DNA of 64,000 bases from [Actinobacillus] rossii (GTDB lineage: Bacteria; Pseudomonadota; Gammaproteobacteria; Enterobacterales; Pasteurellaceae), in the NCBI GenBank assembly GCA_900444965.1, contig UFRQ01000003.1, positions 620,001-684,000 of the forward strand, given 5' to 3'. The position numbers and the translations under genes are program-made. Below the pieces are notes generated by a model, which saw nothing but the letters and a program-made list of their open reading frames with translations, ran no database searches and was not told the DNA's origin. Below, in pieces: positions 2,685 through 22,390 of the stretch; within the stretch, counting starts at the first letter, position 1; the number at the start of each line of letters is the position of its first letter.

Positions 2685-4340
2685 TTACATACTTTCTAAC
2701 ATTTCAGTATTAGGCGCACCGGCAGGCACTAGCGGCCATACGTTTTCATCTTCGTGAATACAAACGTGTAAAAAATAGGCATTTTTAGCTGTAAGTAAAC
2801 GATCTAAAGCTGCGTTCACTTCACAGGCCTTTTCAATCCGCTCACCTTGAATATCAAAGGCTTTGGCAAGGGTGACAAAATCTGGGTTGTCGTCTAAAAT
2901 GGTGGCACTGTGACGACCGCGGAAAAATAGTGATTGCCATTGTCGTACCATCCCTAAACGCTGGTTATCGAGCAATAGAATTTTCACCGGCACTTTGCCT
3001 GATTTTACGGCACCAAGCTCTTGAATATTCATCATAATCGAACCATCGCCAGTGACTAAAATGACATCATCTTGAGGGCGCGCTTTTTTGGCACCGATTG
3101 CGGCAGGCAAACCAAATCCCATCGTACCAAAGCCAGCTGAATTGATGAAATTTTCAGGGGCATTGTGTTGAATGTGCTGTGCAGACCACATTTGATGTTG
3201 GCCTACATCCGTGACCACAATGGCGTTTTGCGCTTTTTTATTGGAAAGCGTGCGTAGTAACCAAGCGGGATTAATATCAACATTCCCTTCGTTTTCGCTA
3301 TAAGTCAACGCAAAATCATCGATTAAACGTTGTACATCTTCACGCCATGGCTGAATATTTAATTCCATCGTTAACGATTGAATGGCTTGATTTAAGTCTC
3401 CTTGCAATGCCACATCGACTTTACGTAATTTACCTAATTCCGCGGCATCAATGTCTGCATGAATTACTTTGGCACCCGCCGCGAAACTGGCCAAATGCCC
3501 CGTCACACGATCATCAAAACGCGCACCCAGCACAATAAGTAAGTCCGCTTCTTGTGTCGCATAGTTTGCGGCTTTTGTACCGTGCATCCCGATCATGCCC
3601 ATATAATATGGTGTTTCTGGCAAAATGGCGCCTAAGCCTTTTAAGGTCGCGATACTTGGGATTTTAGCGGTTTCAAGGAACGCACGTAATGCGGGTACAG
3701 CATTTGCCATTCCAACCCCGCCGCCTACATAAACTACGGGGCGTTTCGATTCTTTTAATAATTGCACCGCACTTTCAATAGATTTGGTGTTAAGTGCGGT
3801 CAATTTTTTATCTGTTTTAACGATAGGTGTCAGATTCGTCTCGGCAAATTGCACATCTTTAGGGATATCAATTAACACGGGACCAGGTCTGCCACTACGT
3901 GCAATTTGGAACGCTTGGGCAAAGATTTCAGGTAACTCATCAATATTTTGCACGATAAAACTATGTTTAGTGCAAGCGAGCGATAAGCCTAGTACGTCAG
4001 CTTCTTGGAACGCGTCAGTACCGATTAATGGATTACCGACTTGCCCCGTAATCGCCACGATAGGTACACTATCCATTAATGCATCGCCTAACCCTGTAAT
4101 TAAATTTGTTGCGCCAGGACCTGATGTTGCGATACACACGCCCACTGTACCGTCCGCTTTGGCACGTGCATAACCGATAGCTTCCATTGCGGCACCTTGC
4201 TCATTGCGACAAAGAAAGTGTTCAATGCCGCTGTCATAAAGGACATCATAGACTGGCATAATCGCGCCGCCTGGATAACCGAATACGGTTGTAACACCAT
4301 GTGCTTTCAAGCATTCTGTGACTAATCTCGCTCCGTTCAT
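2685..4340 (-). CDS. ilvG: Acetolactate synthase II large subunit IlvG
   Basis: A thiamine-diphosphate enzyme of 551 residues that condenses pyruvate into acetolactate, or with 2-oxobutyrate into acetohydroxybutyrate, in branched-chain amino acid synthesis. The opening [18 protein letters not shown] aligns with E. coli IlvG. The catalytic glutamate is E47 (CRNEQGAA), and the ThDP/Mg motif [13 protein letters not shown] lies near residue 430. The frame is complete with no frameshift. No attenuator with a branched-chain-rich leader peptide is seen in the 150 bases upstream, although an AT-rich promoter is. Confidence 0.95.
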
Positions 4341-17892: not shown

Positions 17893-18159
17893 ATGCAAAA
17901 GCCTATTTTATATTTCGCCCACTGGTGCCCCGACACTGCCCTATTTGTCGCTGAATTACAACGTCTTGGTATTGACTACGAAGAACGCGAAATGACAACA
18001 GGCGGTGCAAATTTAAAAGCTTTTTTAAAACTGCGCGATAACCACTCTGCGTTTGATAACGTCAAAGCCAATGGCTATATCGGCATTCCTGCGTTGGTGT
18101 TGGAAGATGAGAGAGTGGTGTTGGATTTAGCTGAGTTACCCCTAGCACTGACGTACTAG
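17893..18159 (+). CDS. Glutaredoxin-related small protein
   Basis: An 88-residue protein with a thioredoxin-fold opening: ILYFAHWCPDT, where C12 is present but the second cysteine of CxxC is T15, and later GIPALV with the cis-proline. It resembles the glutaredoxin-related gene found next to glyQ in Haemophilus. The last residues (PLALTY) and the stop codon lie inside a copy of the 105-bp repeat, so the native C-terminus may have been altered. Confidence 0.75.
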   Translation: MQKPILYFAHWCPDTALFVAELQRLGIDYEEREMTTGGANLKAFLKLRDNHSAFDNVKANGYIGIPALVLEDERVVLDLAELPLALTY

Positions 18160-18245
18160 GTTAAGTATAGTGTTGTTGCTCTGTGACAAGTAAAATAGGT
18201 TGCGGAGCAACCACACTATGCGTAACCCCATACATTAGTATAGAG
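18141..18245 (+). repeat. Structured 105-bp repeat, copy 1
   Basis: This is the most diverged of three copies, with about ten differences from copy 3. It has four stem-loops: CCTAGCAC/GTACTAGG, an outer stem GTATAGTG/CACTATGC that encloses two small hairpins, and a decayed CCCCATAC/GTATAGAG. Changes in the first inner hairpin (TTGTTGC/GTGACAA against TTGTCGC/GCGACAA) keep pairing as G-U. It overlaps the end of the glutaredoxin-like gene. Confidence 0.9.
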
Positions 18246-18248
18246 ATA

Positions 18249-18258
18249 ACAAGCGGTC
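18249..18258 (+). other. Actinobacillus-type uptake signal core
   Basis: ACAAGCGGTC matches the core used by the Actinobacillus pleuropneumoniae branch, unlike the AAGTGCGGT type used across the rest of the window. It lies just upstream of the first DUF1016 gene. A single hit could be chance. Confidence 0.4.
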
Positions 18259-18294
18259 TAATTTCATAGAAATTTTGCAAATATACATAACAAA

Positions 18295-19332
18295 ATGAAC
18301 GATCTTCAACTGACAAATGATCATTTGATTAGCAATATTGCCCACATTATTCATCAAGCCCGTAGCCAAGTTCGCCAGACGGTGAATAGTGTTATGGTGC
18401 AAAGTTATTGGGAAATTGGACGGTTATTGGTTGAAGATGAGCAACAAGGGGAAGAACGGGCTAAGTATGGTAAGTATGTTCTGAAAGATATTTCAGAACG
18501 TTTAACGGCTATGTTTGGTAAAGGGTTTGATGAAAGCAATTTACGCCGTATGCGATTGTTTTATAAGGCGTTTCCAATTCGTGACACACTGTGCCACGAA
18601 TTGAGTTGGTCGCATTATAGACGTTTAATCCAAATAGAAAATTCCCAAGCAAGAGCGTGGTATTTTTTGCGTGAAACTGTTGAACAAAATTGGTCTGTAC
18701 GAGCCTTAGATCGCCAAATTTCGGTATTATATTATGAACGTTTGCTAGCAAGTCAAAACAAGGCGGTGGTTGCTCAAGAAGCTCAAGAGAAAACGGAGTC
18801 ATTAAAAGAGAGCATTCAGGATTATCTGCGTGATCCTTATATTTTGGATTTTCTCAACTTGCAGGATAAAACCTATCAAGAAAACAATGTTGAGCAAGCG
18901 ATTATCGACAATTTGCAACAATTTTTACTGGAATTAGGCAAAGACTTTGCATTTGTTGAGCGGCAAAAACGTATTCGTTTTGATGATGAAGATTTTTATA
19001 TCGACCTTGTGTTTTATAACTTCAAGCTGAAATGTTTTTTACTTATCGATCTCAAAATCGGTAAATTAAAACATCAGGATATCGGGCAAATGGACACTTA
19101 TGTTCGCCTGTTTGACGAACAATTTAAGGAAGAAAACGATAACCCAACCATCGGCTTAGTATTATGTAGCGAACAAAGTGAAGCGGTGGCGAAATATTCG
19201 GTACTTGCGGATAGAAAACAGATTTTTAGTGCGAAGTATCTGCCTTATTTGCCAACGGAGTTGGAGTTGAAAGAGCAGGTGGAAAGGGCAAGGGAAAGAT
19301 TAACGTTAAGCTCTAGTAAGGAAACAATATGA
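18295..19332 (+). CDS. DUF1016 / YhcG-family PD-(D/E)XK nuclease, first of pair
   Basis: A 345-residue protein. An N-terminal DUF1016_N helical domain (about 10-165, with ARSQVRQTVNSVMVQSYWEIGR and ELSWSHYRRLI) is followed by a PD-(D/E)XK nuclease domain (about 175-345). Candidate catalytic residues are D237 (YIDLVFYN), D252-x-K254 (LIDLKIGK) and Q265. The usual glutamate of E-x-K is an aspartate here. Such proteins are often found in restriction-modification and defence loci, but none of those partners is present. It overlaps the next gene by four bases (ATGA). Confidence 0.88.
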   Translation: MNDLQLTNDHLISNIAHIIHQARSQVRQTVNSVMVQSYWEIGRLLVEDEQQGEERAKYGKYVLKDISERLTAMFGKGFDESNLRRMRLFYKAFPIRDTLCHELSWSHYRRLIQIENSQARAWYFLRETVEQNWSVRALDRQISVLYYERLLASQNKAVVAQEAQEKTESLKESIQDYLRDPYILDFLNLQDKTYQENNVEQAIIDNLQQFLLELGKDFAFVERQKRIRFDDEDFYIDLVFYNFKLKCFLLIDLKIGKLKHQDIGQMDTYVRLFDEQFKEENDNPTIGLVLCSEQSEAVAKYSVLADRKQIFSAKYLPYLPTELELKEQVERARERLTLSSSKETI

Positions 19333-20396
19333 CAGACAAGCAGTTAATCACACAAGCTGAACATTCAAAAGCATTTATCAGTGAAATCAGCCAGTTAATC
19401 CATTCGTCTAAACAGAGAATGACGGCGGCTGTGAATGCAGAATTAACGTTGCTTTACTGGCATATTGGCAAGCGGATTAATGATTATATTTTGCAGGGTG
19501 AGCGTGCGAAATATGGGGAAGATATTATTCCTAAATTATCTACCCATTTAACCAAGCAGTTTGGGAAAGGTTGGAGTAAAAGAAATTTAGGATATATGAT
19601 GCAATTTGCATCACAATTTCCTGATATTGAGATTTTGCAATCACTGATTGCAAAATTGAGCTGGACACATTTTACTAAACTTTTTGTTATTGACGACCCA
19701 ATAAAACGTGATTTCTACGCCACAATGGCAGCACAGGAAAGATGGTCGGTAAGAACACTCGATGATCGTATCGGTTCACTGTTATTTGAACGCACAGCAA
19801 TTTCTAAGAAGCCTGATGAAACTATTGTACAAGAGCTGGCGTTATTAAGAGAAAAAGGCGAATATAATCAATCATTAGTGTTAAAAGATCCTTATATTTT
19901 GGATTTTCTTGAGCTTAATGATCGTTATATGGAAAAAGATCTAGAAGATGCGATTTTACGAGAGATCGAACAATTCTTATTGGAATTGGGAGCAGGCTTT
20001 ACTTTTGTCGCTCGCCAAAAGCGTATTCAGATCGATAATGATGATTTTTATATCGACTTGCTGTTTTATAATCGGAAACTCAAACGCTTGATTGCCATTG
20101 AGCTTAAAACGGAAGCTTTTAAGCATGCCCATAAAAGCCAAATGGAATTATATTTGGCGTGGTTAGCAAAATATGAGCAAGAAGCCGATGAAAACCCACC
20201 GCTTGGAATTATTCTTTGCACATCGAAAAAGCAAGAGCAAGTGGAATTGTTGGATTTAAAGCAGTCGGATATTCATATTGCAGAATACACCACCGTCTTG
20301 CCAAGTAAAGAAGTGCTGGAACAACGGTTACATTTGGCGGTGGAAAGGGCGAGAGAAAGATTTACGGTACACCCTAGCACTGACGTACTAGGTTAA
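19329..20396 (+). CDS. DUF1016 / YhcG-family PD-(D/E)XK nuclease, second of pair
   Basis: A 355-residue paralogue of the gene before it and translated from an overlapping ATGA. The N-terminal domain again has KQRMTAAVNAELTLLYWHIGKR and KLSWTHFTKLF. The nuclease domain has the canonical set D243 (YIDLLFYN), E258-x-K260 (AIELKTEAF) and Q271. The two proteins are clearly related but well diverged, so this is not a recent duplication; they may form a heteromer. The final residues (PSTDVLG) and stop codon are encoded by copy 2 of the 105-bp repeat. Confidence 0.88.
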   Translation: MTDKQLITQAEHSKAFISEISQLIHSSKQRMTAAVNAELTLLYWHIGKRINDYILQGERAKYGEDIIPKLSTHLTKQFGKGWSKRNLGYMMQFASQFPDIEILQSLIAKLSWTHFTKLFVIDDPIKRDFYATMAAQERWSVRTLDDRIGSLLFERTAISKKPDETIVQELALLREKGEYNQSLVLKDPYILDFLELNDRYMEKDLEDAILREIEQFLLELGAGFTFVARQKRIQIDNDDFYIDLLFYNRKLKRLIAIELKTEAFKHAHKSQMELYLAWLAKYEQEADENPPLGIILCTSKKQEQVELLDLKQSDIHIAEYTTVLPSKEVLEQRLHLAVERARERFTVHPSTDVLG

Positions 20397-20477
20397 GCAT
20401 AGTGTTGTCGCTCTGCGACAAACAAAATAGGTTGCAGAGCAACCGCACTATGCGTAACCCCATACGTCAGTATGGGG
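20373..20477 (+). repeat. Structured 105-bp repeat, copy 2
   Basis: It differs from copy 3 at only three positions. The hairpins are CCTAGCAC/GTACTAGG, outer stem GCATAGTG/CACTATGC, inner TTGTCGC/GCGACAA and GTTGC/GCAAC, and CCCCATAC/GTATGGGG. The first and last hairpins carry ACTGACGTA and TACGTCAGT, which are reverse complements, so the whole unit is also one large imperfect palindrome. It overlaps the end of the second DUF1016 gene. Confidence 0.92.
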
Positions 20478-20562
20478 GAAGTAACAAATGATATAATCTA
20501 GCAATAACTTTTACATAATTTAAGAAATTTCACAATTACGGATTGCCTAATAAAAAATAAGT

Positions 20563-21177
20563 ATGTTACTTAAAGATATATTTAAGAAATCTTTTATCTT
20601 CTTTTTTAAGAAAAAATATGAAGAAAAAGCAGAGACTATGAGTGAGTTACCTACTTCACTTATGGAAGAATTTAGATTGAAATATAACTACAAAGAGATA
20701 GTTAATAACTTCAATTTGAATTATGTTTTTGAGATTAAGAAAAATAGTGAATTAAATGAGATTGAAAGATCTTCTATTGTAAAATTCTTGAAGCAAGAAG
20801 ATAACAAAAACATATTTATATGGGAGCATAACTTAGAAATTGAAGAAAATGGATATAGTCTATTCTTTATACAAAATAATGAGGTTATTGCTTATATTCA
20901 AGTTATAGAAGATAGCAATGATTTGGGTATGATTAACATTAATTATCTTTCAGTAAAAAAAGCATTAAGGCTACAAGGAGTTGCAACACATCTATTAGCT
21001 CAAACTATAGCTTTTTGTGATAGAACTTATCCCGCAAAAGATATTGCAGCTTGGATAGATATAGAAATCTCAGACTTTTTCTCTGACTTTGGTTTTAATC
21101 CATTTATAGGACAAATTGAAGAAGTTAATGGAAGACAGATAAGTCTTTTTACTTTTCGATGGGAATTTCGCGAATAA
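20563..21177 (+). CDS. GNAT-family acetyltransferase
   Basis: A protein of 204 residues; an internal ATG at 20638 would give a 179-residue form, and neither start has a strong ribosome site. The acetyl-CoA binding motif is visible in LSVKKALRLQGVATHLLAQ (Q-x-x-G-x-A). The first 25 residues are basic and aromatic (KKSFIFFFKKKY), and may be a poor tail or not translated. The gene is very AT-rich compared with glyQ and glyS, consistent with acquisition. The substrate is unknown. It is followed after 12 bases by a small putative nuclease-fold gene. Confidence 0.72.
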   Translation: MLLKDIFKKSFIFFFKKKYEEKAETMSELPTSLMEEFRLKYNYKEIVNNFNLNYVFEIKKNSELNEIERSSIVKFLKQEDNKNIFIWEHNLEIEENGYSLFFIQNNEVIAYIQVIEDSNDLGMININYLSVKKALRLQGVATHLLAQTIAFCDRTYPAKDIAAWIDIEISDFFSDFGFNPFIGQIEEVNGRQISLFTFRWEFRE

Positions 21178-21189
21178 GGAATAATATAA

Positions 21190-21651
21190 ATGATCTCAAA
21201 TGTACACTTAAATATGGTTAAGCGTATAAATCCTGAAAATTTATCTTCTAAACAGAAAGAAAATTATCATTTTCATAAACAAGCTGCGGTTTTAGCTGAT
21301 TATGGATTTAATTGCATTAAATTAAGTGATGATTGGGAAGGTGCAGACTTTTTAGCTCATAGTAATGAAATTACTTTGAAAGTACAGCTAAAATCAAGAA
21401 CCACAATTGCTAAAAAATATATCTCGAAAGATCTATATATGCTTTTCCCTTTAGATGACAAAGATGTAAATTCTGACTGGTGTTTAATAAAACACGATAT
21501 TTTGATGGAATTAATAGCTAATAAATTACATTGGTTAAATACAACAAGTTGGATTAAAGATGGAATATATAACTCATCAAAAGCACCTAAAGGAATTTTA
21601 CCTGAGTTACAAAAATATATTCTTAAAGGGCAAGATACTTTAATTTTATAA
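21190..21651 (+). CDS. Small putative PD-(D/E)XK-like protein
   Basis: A 153-residue protein not recognised as a named family. The segment GADFLAHSNEITLKVQLKSR has the spacing of a nuclease core: D53, a short beta hairpin, then Q66-x-K68, as in QxK variants of the restriction-endonuclease fold. ENYHFHKQAAVLADYGFNC before it could be the first helix. AAGGAA lies before the ATG. It may be co-transcribed with the GNAT gene; pairing suggests a modifier-nuclease or toxin-like module, which is only inference. Confidence 0.55.
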   Translation: MISNVHLNMVKRINPENLSSKQKENYHFHKQAAVLADYGFNCIKLSDDWEGADFLAHSNEITLKVQLKSRTTIAKKYISKDLYMLFPLDDKDVNSDWCLIKHDILMELIANKLHWLNTTSWIKDGIYNSSKAPKGILPELQKYILKGQDTLIL

Positions 21652-21669
21652 GTTTATATTTAAGTATAC

Positions 21670-21774
21670 CCTAGTACTGACGTACTAGGTTAAGCATAGT
21701 GTTGTCGCTCTGCGACAAACAAAATAGGTTGCGGAGCAACCGCACTATGCGTAACCCCATACGTTAGTATGGGG
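21670..21774 (+). repeat. Structured 105-bp repeat, copy 3
   Basis: This copy has the most perfect pairing: the first hairpin CCTAGTAC-TGAC-GTACTAGG is fully complementary, as are the outer stem, both inner hairpins and CCCCATAC-GTTA-GTATGGGG. It begins 18 bases after the stop of the small putative nuclease gene. All three copies have the same orientation and sit at the 3' end of a gene on the + strand. Confidence 0.92.
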
Positions 21775-21814: not shown

Positions 21815-22390
21815 ATGAAAAAAGTTTTTATAATTATTTTTTCTTGTATTCTATTTTTAACAAGCTGTTCTACAAAAAATACTTTTGTCCAAGGAGAAAT
21901 CACTCATGCCAAGCTATTTGATAATTATGCTGCAATACAAATAAGTGGAGAATCTTATTTCTTAAATAGCACTAATAAAGTAGAGATGAAGAAATTTAAA
22001 GATTTTTATCATGAATATTATTCAAAGGTAGATAAACAAGCATTAGCTCTACATTTGTTACAAAGAAGTTATGATAAAAAAAGTGGCGATTTTACATATT
22101 TCTTTTTTCTAGAAAAAAATAAATTAGATCAAGCTACTATATCAAAACTTGAAAAAATATATGGAGCTAAGCCATACCAAGATAAATATATAATGCTAGG
22201 TTTTTCTGCAAAAACACAGTCATATTATAAAAAAGATCTATTAGAAGATGCATATAAATTAGAACATCCAATTCCTATTGTAATAACAAGAGAAATTCCT
22301 TTTGAAGAAACTGGAGGCGGACAATTTTTACTCATGATAACAATGCCAATTTGGGTTCCTTTTATGATTTTATTTGGATTAAAAGTTTAA
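21815..22390 (+). CDS. Predicted lipoprotein of unknown function
   Basis: A 191-residue protein with a lipoprotein signal peptide: MKK, a hydrophobic core, and a lipobox LTSC with C18 as the modified cysteine. The C-terminus has a hydrophobic segment (LLMITMPIWVPFMILFG) that could span a membrane, an odd feature for a lipoprotein. No known family was recognised. It is AT-rich like the rest of the block and ends 26 bases before glyS. Confidence 0.7.
   Translation: MKKVFIIIFSCILFLTSCSTKNTFVQGEITHAKLFDNYAAIQISGESYFLNSTNKVEMKKFKDFYHEYYSKVDKQALALHLLQRSYDKKSGDFTYFFFLEKNKLDQATISKLEKIYGAKPYQDKYIMLGFSAKTQSYYKKDLLEDAYKLEHPIPIVITREIPFEETGGGQFLLMITMPIWVPFMILFGLKV

Follow-up and report, generated by a model that had tools for sequence, protein, structure and literature searches.

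What kind of element is a 105-bp structured repeat that stands three times, on one strand, among the accessory genes of a Pasteurellaceae operon? The question is raised by a window of 64,000 nucleotides (the whole stretch analysed) of [Actinobacillus] rossii, assembly GCA_900444965.1, contig UFRQ01000003.1, positions 620,001 to 684,000. A sequence-only reading had pointed out three copies of equal length and orientation, and these were found again exactly at 18141-18245, 20373-20477 and 21670-21774 (+), at the locus of two genes that we take to be glyQ and glyS; the other names used here for his operon genes (hisC, hisB) and for hslU are likewise our presumption. Our results lead us to propose that these units are very probably non-autonomous, REPIN-like DNA elements served by a resident TnpA transposase of the subclass-1.2 type and acting as homology joints. 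Shared ends, a conserved fold, co-occurrence with the transposase gene and adjacency to it were observed across genomes; movement of the units by TnpA would follow from this anatomy and association.

A transposase gene with matching ends, suggested by the sequence-only reading as something to look for, exists in the same genome (G000). A 568-bp element at G000:C3:988653-989220, located between hisC and hisB, carries both unit halves round an open reading frame (ORF) of 151 aa, in the order first hairpin (H1), TTAAGCATAGTG, second hairpin (H2), ORF, third hairpin (H3), CACTATGCGTAA, last hairpin (H4). The outer unit parts recur there 0.5 kb apart near C3:988.7 kb, and the matches to a covariance model of the unit start at 3654 and end at 4221 of the fetched locus (L010). 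Since the same two outer halves enclose tnpA, the 105-bp unit corresponds to such an element without its gene.

The 151-aa ORF matched Pfam Y1_Tnp (1.8e-22) and the NCBIfam equivalog for IS200/IS605 transposases (72 bits, cut-off 55), and the five PDB entries related to it in sequence (2fyx, 2xm3, 2xma, 2xo6 and 2f4f) are all filed as transposases. Its Y motif, YIKNQKEHH (Y---Q--HH type), is letter for letter the published consensus of subclass 1.2; by motif and length the resident enzyme is thus a predicted Y1/HUH TnpA_Y1 of that type. Quentin et al. (2018, PMC6006769) describe subclass 1.2 as having low copy number and no REP partner, and as occurring mostly in Cyanobacteria and Bacteroidetes. 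The window's genome holds one such gene (E 1e-10), at an operon site common to its relatives. At E<=1e-10, a search of 61 genomes gave 18 such genes, spread over 12 genomes that are all Pasteurellaceae; none of the genes has an internal stop, and a tnpA match was also present in 18 of 25 further chosen genomes. On mobile replicons the enzyme was almost absent (E<=1e-15; one of 72,556 plasmid records, none of 50,697 phage records).

The association between enzyme and half-sites is not confined to this genome. We took the best 80 of 172 relatives of tnpA, comprising 35 from Pasteurellaceae and 45 others (mostly Bacteroidetes, one Lentisphaerae), and searched their flanks with a descriptor consisting of a hairpin of at least 6 pairs, [TC]TA and a second hairpin 8-16 nt further on, a form chosen after viewing the flanks of tnpA and of the Rfam family RF01687. 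A half-site lay within 250 nt of tnpA at 33 of the 35 Pasteurellaceae loci and at 27 of the 45 others, against 13/350 and 17/450 dinucleotide shuffles (about 4%) and 0/35 and 1/45 windows taken 700-1200 nt upstream. Among other Y1 genes (23 of 30 loci parsed) the descriptor fired beside none of 11 class 2 genes, 4 of 10 of subclass 1.1 and both of subclass 1.2, genes without another motif being taken as 1.1 by default and one lacking a clear Y motif. The likeness between half-sites tracked that between the proteins (rank correlation 0.45 over 33 loci and 0.57 over 27, none of 999 permutations being as high), common descent being left uncorrected. The inverted similarity of the two flanks of a tnpA gene exceeded the 99th percentile of swapped pairs at 7/35 and 2/45 loci, a weak test because neighbours share repeat types.

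The half-sites also resemble a family catalogued as RNA. RF01687 (Acido-Lenti-1) matches 21670-21717, the first half of the third copy, over its whole model and with nearly the same H1 letters, at 26.2 bits, below the cut-off of 37 (E 1.9e-4 on 161 bases, 0.0056 on 4.7 kb); it scored 19.8 bits in copy 2, and among 20 other Pasteurellaceae sources 3 gave 25.3-27.7 bits. Of 19 genomes picked because they carry a TnpA relative, 12 had RF01687 at E<=0.01 and 4 above the cut-off, one Lentisphaerae assembly alone containing 107 matches, against a single match and none above the cut-off in 14 well-known control genomes, a rough control mostly from other phyla; class-wide, at E<=1e-5, matches were present in 12 of 119 genomes (10 above the cut-off) and in none of the 14 controls. 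Several loci join this family to genes of the same type: two inverted RF01687-type elements enclose a gene with WQ and YIINQEEHH (L290), an element stands close to a gene with YIANQHEHH (L304), and a run of elements precedes a gene with YIANQHQHH (L367). In one genome (G338), where RF01687 reaches 57 bits, inverted pairs of it about 160 bp apart occur at six places, and a pair 614 bp apart (L387, G338:C61:12700-14900) encloses a gene with WQ and YILNQEEHH.

Acido-Lenti-1 (PMC2864571, PMC13298647) shares with our units a hairpin, a short CTA linker and a second hairpin; as the loci above show, in Bacteroidetes it also occurs as inverted pairs and on both sides of subclass 1.2 tnpA. It differs from them in being filed as a small RNA (sRNA), and the units score below its cut-off. 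In our view Acido-Lenti-1 is probably not an RNA gene but one branch of the class of transposase sites to which our units belong; a family catalogued as RNA would then in fact be a site for a transposase. Two results weigh against this assignment. Such a gene was present within about 1.5 kb at only 2 of 25 and 1 of 26 fetched RF01687 loci, a sparseness that is as expected of dispersed repeats. Moreover, no match (E<=1) was obtained at the 20 of the 80 tnpA loci that were scanned from other phyla (19 Bacteroidetes, 1 Lentisphaerae), which places the half-sites there beyond the reach of that model.

Eighteen units, the three window copies included, were used to build a covariance model, which recovered the same copy boundaries over its full length (model positions 1-106 of 106). 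With it, units were found in 73 of 140 family genomes (E<=1e-4), so that the repeat is not limited to this locus and a reading by local duplication only fails. The scan used strict filters and scored 28 candidates per genome; units mostly match on both strands and the E-values are rough, the 10 match rows of the window's genome representing about 5 units. Transposase gene and units tend to occur together: among the 37 family genomes searched for both (G000-G036), 11 had both, 1 tnpA only, 5 units only and 20 neither (Fisher p 5e-5). Leaving out the matches of three doubtful genomes (G006, G017 and G027), these counts become 8, 4, 5 and 20 (p 0.008). Inspection of the three, however, revealed that tnpA has no unit match beside it in G006 or G017 and has full units in a row next to it in G027, and hence their unit matches are not merely the halves belonging to tnpA itself. 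The 105-bp unit had no match in the plasmid, phage and E. coli collections.

Some observations on the distribution of these elements are worth recording. Units repeated directly in tandem, three at L048:905-1293 (G014) and four at L046:994-1459 (G027), stand just upstream of tnpA. A second tnpA position is shared by two genera (L057 in G014, L058 in G031), with hslU directly downstream of tnpA. GTAG-type palindrome pairs, for example GTAGGGGCGGG...CCCGCCCCTAC, fill some gaps of the his operon (L010, L099-L102) where relatives have units; the two REP-like systems share insertion places.

Units of both orientations lie in gene gaps of the his operon and at glyQ-glyS, and at the latter they separate blocks of genes that recur in different combinations. 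Writing U for a unit, the window has [two YhcG]-U-[GNAT, 153-aa ORF]-U-[lipoprotein-like], G004 has [two YhcG]-U-[fam17, fam18], G002 has [fam28]-U-[one YhcG]-U-[fam17, fam18], and G098, which belongs to another genus, has [fam28]-U-[GNAT, 153-aa ORF]-U-[fam17, fam18]. The stretch from unit to unit that the window shares with G098 measures 1403 bp and is 97.6% identical, compared with 89.9% for glyQ and 91.5% for glyS, and it begins one base ahead of a unit and ends with the last base of the following one. Similarly, G067 has the second YhcG gene and a unit at 95.6%, against 83-84% alongside. Among 8 loci (internal breakpoints of matches of at least 150 bp and at least 80%), 33 of 61 homology breakpoints fell in a unit or within 25 nt of one, where 9.1 would be expected if they were uniform. 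At another site, G000, G002 and G031 share a gene with a unit after it, beyond which the three sequences differ; the unit is internally deleted in G000, the gene end is lost in G031, and G004 has no unit and a fourth sequence.

These data are consistent with the following mechanism. Each unit would consist of two inverted half-sites, H1-[TC]TA-linker-H2 and its mirror H3-linker-TAA-H4, cognate to TnpA. A TnpA dimer may recognize the half-site hairpins in single-stranded DNA, cut close to the [TC]TA at the H1 foot, in analogy to the cleavage of IS608 at TTAC, and move the units as single strands. Several alike units in operon gaps could then serve as homology joints for recombination, which would exchange gene blocks between strains and genera and give rise to the modular glyQ-glyS block; the DNA for this exchange probably arrives by natural transformation, a process that occurs in Pasteurellaceae. 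The units would thereby be fixed joints where accessory genes, here YhcG-type nucleases of a candidate defence family, get swapped inside core operons.

An alternative that we regard as unlikely is that TnpA mobilizes units together with the enclosed gene blocks as single-stranded, integron-like cassettes, with no part for homologous recombination. It would account for unit-bordered blocks that reappear in other combinations, also in another genus, and end at outer unit edges, and the tnpA-bearing element illustrates that the halves are able to enclose a gene. Homologous recombination within alike units, however, yields the same edges; many genomes have tnpA at a single conserved operon position, blocks are gained without units as well, and no circle or excision product was seen. 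For these reasons block exchange by recombination at the units is preferred over cassette movement driven by TnpA. An equally small chance is given to a broader version, in which the units are attachment sites of an integron-like HUH system, glyQ-glyS and the his operon are cassette arrays, the resident TnpA moves the unit-flanked blocks as single strands, and an enzyme/site pair of the same kind works, as Acido-Lenti-1, across Bacteroidetes and Lentisphaerae. As for integron attC sites themselves, GTTAAGC/GCGTAAC are core-like, their order being the reverse of that in attC (judged by eye), and this candidate was discarded, no integrase search having been made.

The glyQ-glyS gap merits a separate comment. 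In many Pasteurellaceae it gathers unrelated genes, with or without units (L126-L155). A unit was present in 5 of 30 glyS loci fetched with 1.5 kb upstream. As genes occupy the gap without units too, the units are not needed for insertion at glyQ-glyS, and this gap counts as a hotspot by itself. At hisC-hisB (hisB is present in 44 genomes, of which 30 were fetched, with hisC near in 28), the gap held tnpA in 7 genomes, a unit without tnpA in one (G076), a half in one (G025), only 9-44 bp in 13 and other sequence in the rest; this survey describes states of the site and not an insertion event.

Several results weigh against the proposal that the units are TnpA-served elements acting as joints. 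At the unit flanks and orthologous sites examined, we saw neither a transposition event nor a target duplication nor an exact empty site, the flanks of the units differing from one another. Of the 61 breakpoints, only 17 are 25 nt or less from the matching edge of a unit, and all 61 stem from 8 sequences, so that the pairs are not independent; the breakpoints other than the 33 in or near a unit lie at unit-free joints. G004, the sole orthologous site without a unit, differs beyond the gene too, and many of the 25 glyS loci read have gap genes and no unit in the stretch fetched, while a few have gaps of only 18-42 bp. Regarding the enzyme, the W motif is WS or WA in 15 aligned Pasteurellaceae proteins, compared with WQ in subclass 1.2; tnpA was found only in pieces in G067 and G062, five family genomes carry units and no tnpA at E 1e-10, and the window's genome has two other Y1 genes (G000:C3:1676553 and 2397662). 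Finally, the descriptor fired near four of the ten subclass 1.1 genes. Two of these cases are chance-like, and two are hairpin pairs that may represent IS200-type ends; one of them reads hairpin-ttacgcaaag-hairpin, which resembles the TTAC and AAAG motifs of IS608, an element cut at TTAC.

The fold of the unit is relevant to whether selection has acted on DNA or on RNA. The three copies differ in divergence: in a 111-nt frame, copy 1 is 87% and copy 3 is 96% identical to copy 2, and against the model copy 1 scored 99.5 bits (79.8 on the minus strand), copy 2 118.7 bits and copy 3 117.5 bits. In copy 2 the parts are H1 20373-20392, the linker or left stem TTAAGCATAGTG 20393-20404, H2 20405-20421, a spacer 20422-20429, H3 20430-20444, the right stem CACTATGCGTAA 20446-20457 and H4 20458-20477. 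Copy 1 has H1 18141-18160, a left stem from 18161, H2 18173-18189, H3 18198-18212 and H4 18226-18245; copy 3 has H1 21670-21689, H2 21702-21718, H3 21727-21741 and H4 21755-21774. The complementary cores ACTGACGTA and TACGTCAGT, already noticed in the first and last hairpins, are exact in copy 2, and that of the last hairpin is altered at one position in copy 3 and at two positions in copy 1.

None of 200 dinucleotide shuffles folded as well as the real sequence for any of the three copies (z-scores for copies 1, 2 and 3 of -4.5, -7.2 and -9.2 as DNA and -7.0, -9.3 and -9.0 as RNA). Folding of single sequences left unsettled the choice between four hairpins and one long hairpin: the DNA minimum on the plus strand has the complete four-hairpin fold in copy 3 only, keeps H2 and H3 and joins the H1 and H4 apices in copy 2, and is a long arm in copy 1, and the RNA minimum has long arms in copies 1 and 2 and separate H1 and H4 in copy 3. 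Comparison across the 18 aligned units decides for the four-hairpin fold proposed in the sequence-only reading and against the long palindrome, with 97.1% of 629 cells paired and a covariation score of 0.486, against 79.5% and 0.200 for the full palindrome. In 23 of 35 pairs both sides have changed with pairing retained; none of 500 shuffles matched any of these measures, and slid versions of the fold pair 23-42%. The stems of H1 and H4 diverge separately, and the H1/H4 apices and H2/H3 loops largely stay complementary. As the 18 units were chosen from similarity and motif matches, the conserved core letters are partly a result of that choice.

It would also be conceivable, even if quite improbable, that the units are structured RNA elements in operon mRNA (stabilizers, processing sites or attenuators) whose pairing is conserved for the RNA. 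Units do lie between co-oriented genes, the copies have strong RNA folds, and the half-site-like Rfam family is filed as sRNA. The sequence-only reading had gone in this direction, holding that the differences in copy 1 keep pairing through G-U and point to selection on RNA, an argument that did not hold: of its 11 differences from copy 2, 6 are unpaired, 3 become G-T and 2 break the pair (A-C). Over the 18 units there are 595 Watson-Crick cells, 16 G-T and 18 unpaired, 12 of the latter being A-C. If an RNA strand were under selection, G-T would be expected to outnumber A-C; as the two are about equally numerous, neither strand is favoured and selection on RNA is unsupported. In addition, units occur in both orientations relative to genes, and the same halves flank a transposase gene. 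The terminator-like sites inside the units belong to the minus strand and have their tail in a spacer of the family's variable part, and the units were not retained as intrinsic terminators.

Least probable of all is that another enzyme, either another Y1 transposase or a DDE transposase as for a miniature inverted-repeat transposable element (MITE), moves the units and that the likeness of flanks is all they share with tnpA: in spite of the two further Y1 genes in the genome and of a second unit subfamily inside an apparently TA-flanked MITE-like repeat, one of those two genes (L331) has an IS200-like Y motif, no unit halves and only a chance-like descriptor match beside it, and half-sites accompany subclass-1.2 genes in two bacterial groups. 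The subfamily in question is a 115-bp unit at L011:2784-2898 (G000:C3:2488283-2488397), with copies in G002 and G004, nested in a repeat of ~210 bp with ends TAAGGCTTGTTGATGTTTT...AAAACATCAACAAGCCCTA.

With respect to known systems, the likeness to a REPIN or MITE put forward in the sequence-only reading stood in part: the kind is REPIN-like, and a canonical REPIN of the RAYT/GTAG type is contradicted by the [TC]TA foot and by the score of 27 bits, below the cut-off of 80, of the 151-aa protein against the REP-associated tyrosine transposase model (REP_Tyr_transpos). The retrieved parts of PMC2817692, PMC3733652 and PMC6006769 present REPINs and REPtrons, served by class 2 RAYT or TnpA_REP enzymes, as a Y1 gene at conserved places flanked by inverted palindromic sites, with gene-less inverted pairs dispersed between genes, all of which applies to our units. 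In contrast, the enzyme here is of class 1 type (Y---Q--HH) and not Y---NP; there is no GT[AG]G 5' foot, the letters before H1 being TTAC, ACAC and ATAC, with [TC]TA after H1; each half-site has two hairpins; and copies are few per Pasteurellaceae genome, compared with more than 100 per genome for RAYT REPINs. Unlike IS200/IS605 elements (subclass 1.1), which have several near-identical gene-bearing copies, there is one such gene in the window's genome. Subclass 1.2, as portrayed in PMC6006769, agrees in the motif YIKNQKEHH, the length of about 150 aa, the short tail after the motif, the low copy number and the Bacteroidetes relatives; it differs in that half-sites are found beside the gene here and Pasteurellaceae lie outside the range stated there.

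Other described repeats come near in some respects. The TIRtrons of Di Nocera et al. (2013, PMC3733652) have, in the passages retrieved, Y1 genes (TIRYT) flanked by non-GTAG inverted repeats, some of them repeated in the genome, but these genes are RAYT-like, unlike the enzyme here; a term search of that text returned no Pasteurella, Haemophilus, Actinobacillus, Mannheimia or Aggregatibacter, and its retrieved passages do not describe the 105-bp unit. The intergenic dyad sequences of Haemophilus influenzae (PMC4144887) are near by description alone. Hin-1 of H. influenzae and Pam-1 of P. multocida are built of DNA uptake sequence (DUS) repeats, according to PMC2267715, and hence different. In the open-licence PMC literature, the scope of our search, we recognized no description of the repeat or of a site for a subclass 1.2 TnpA. 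The units are best filed as REPIN-like elements served by a subclass-1.2-type TnpA, outside the RAYT family; they would be a likely DNA substrate for a transposase subclass that its describing paper left without one, and would show that a REPIN-like mode of existence is not restricted to the RAYT branch.

Finally, the genes around the three copies are all on the plus strand. An 88-aa ORF (17893-18159), glutaredoxin-like only below the cut-off, has its stop codon within H1 of copy 1. The third block (21815-22390) is a 191-aa lipoprotein-like ORF (lipobox recognized by eye), with no family match, that precedes glyS. The second block (20563-21651) holds a GNAT acetyltransferase gene (20563-21177) and the 153-aa ORF (21190-21651), which had no Pfam or NCBIfam match. 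The first block between units (18295-20396) consists of two YhcG/DUF1016-PDDEXK genes, 18295-19332 and 19329-20396, the second of which has its stop inside copy 2; this adjacent pair matches the PADLOC candidate defence family PDC-S02.

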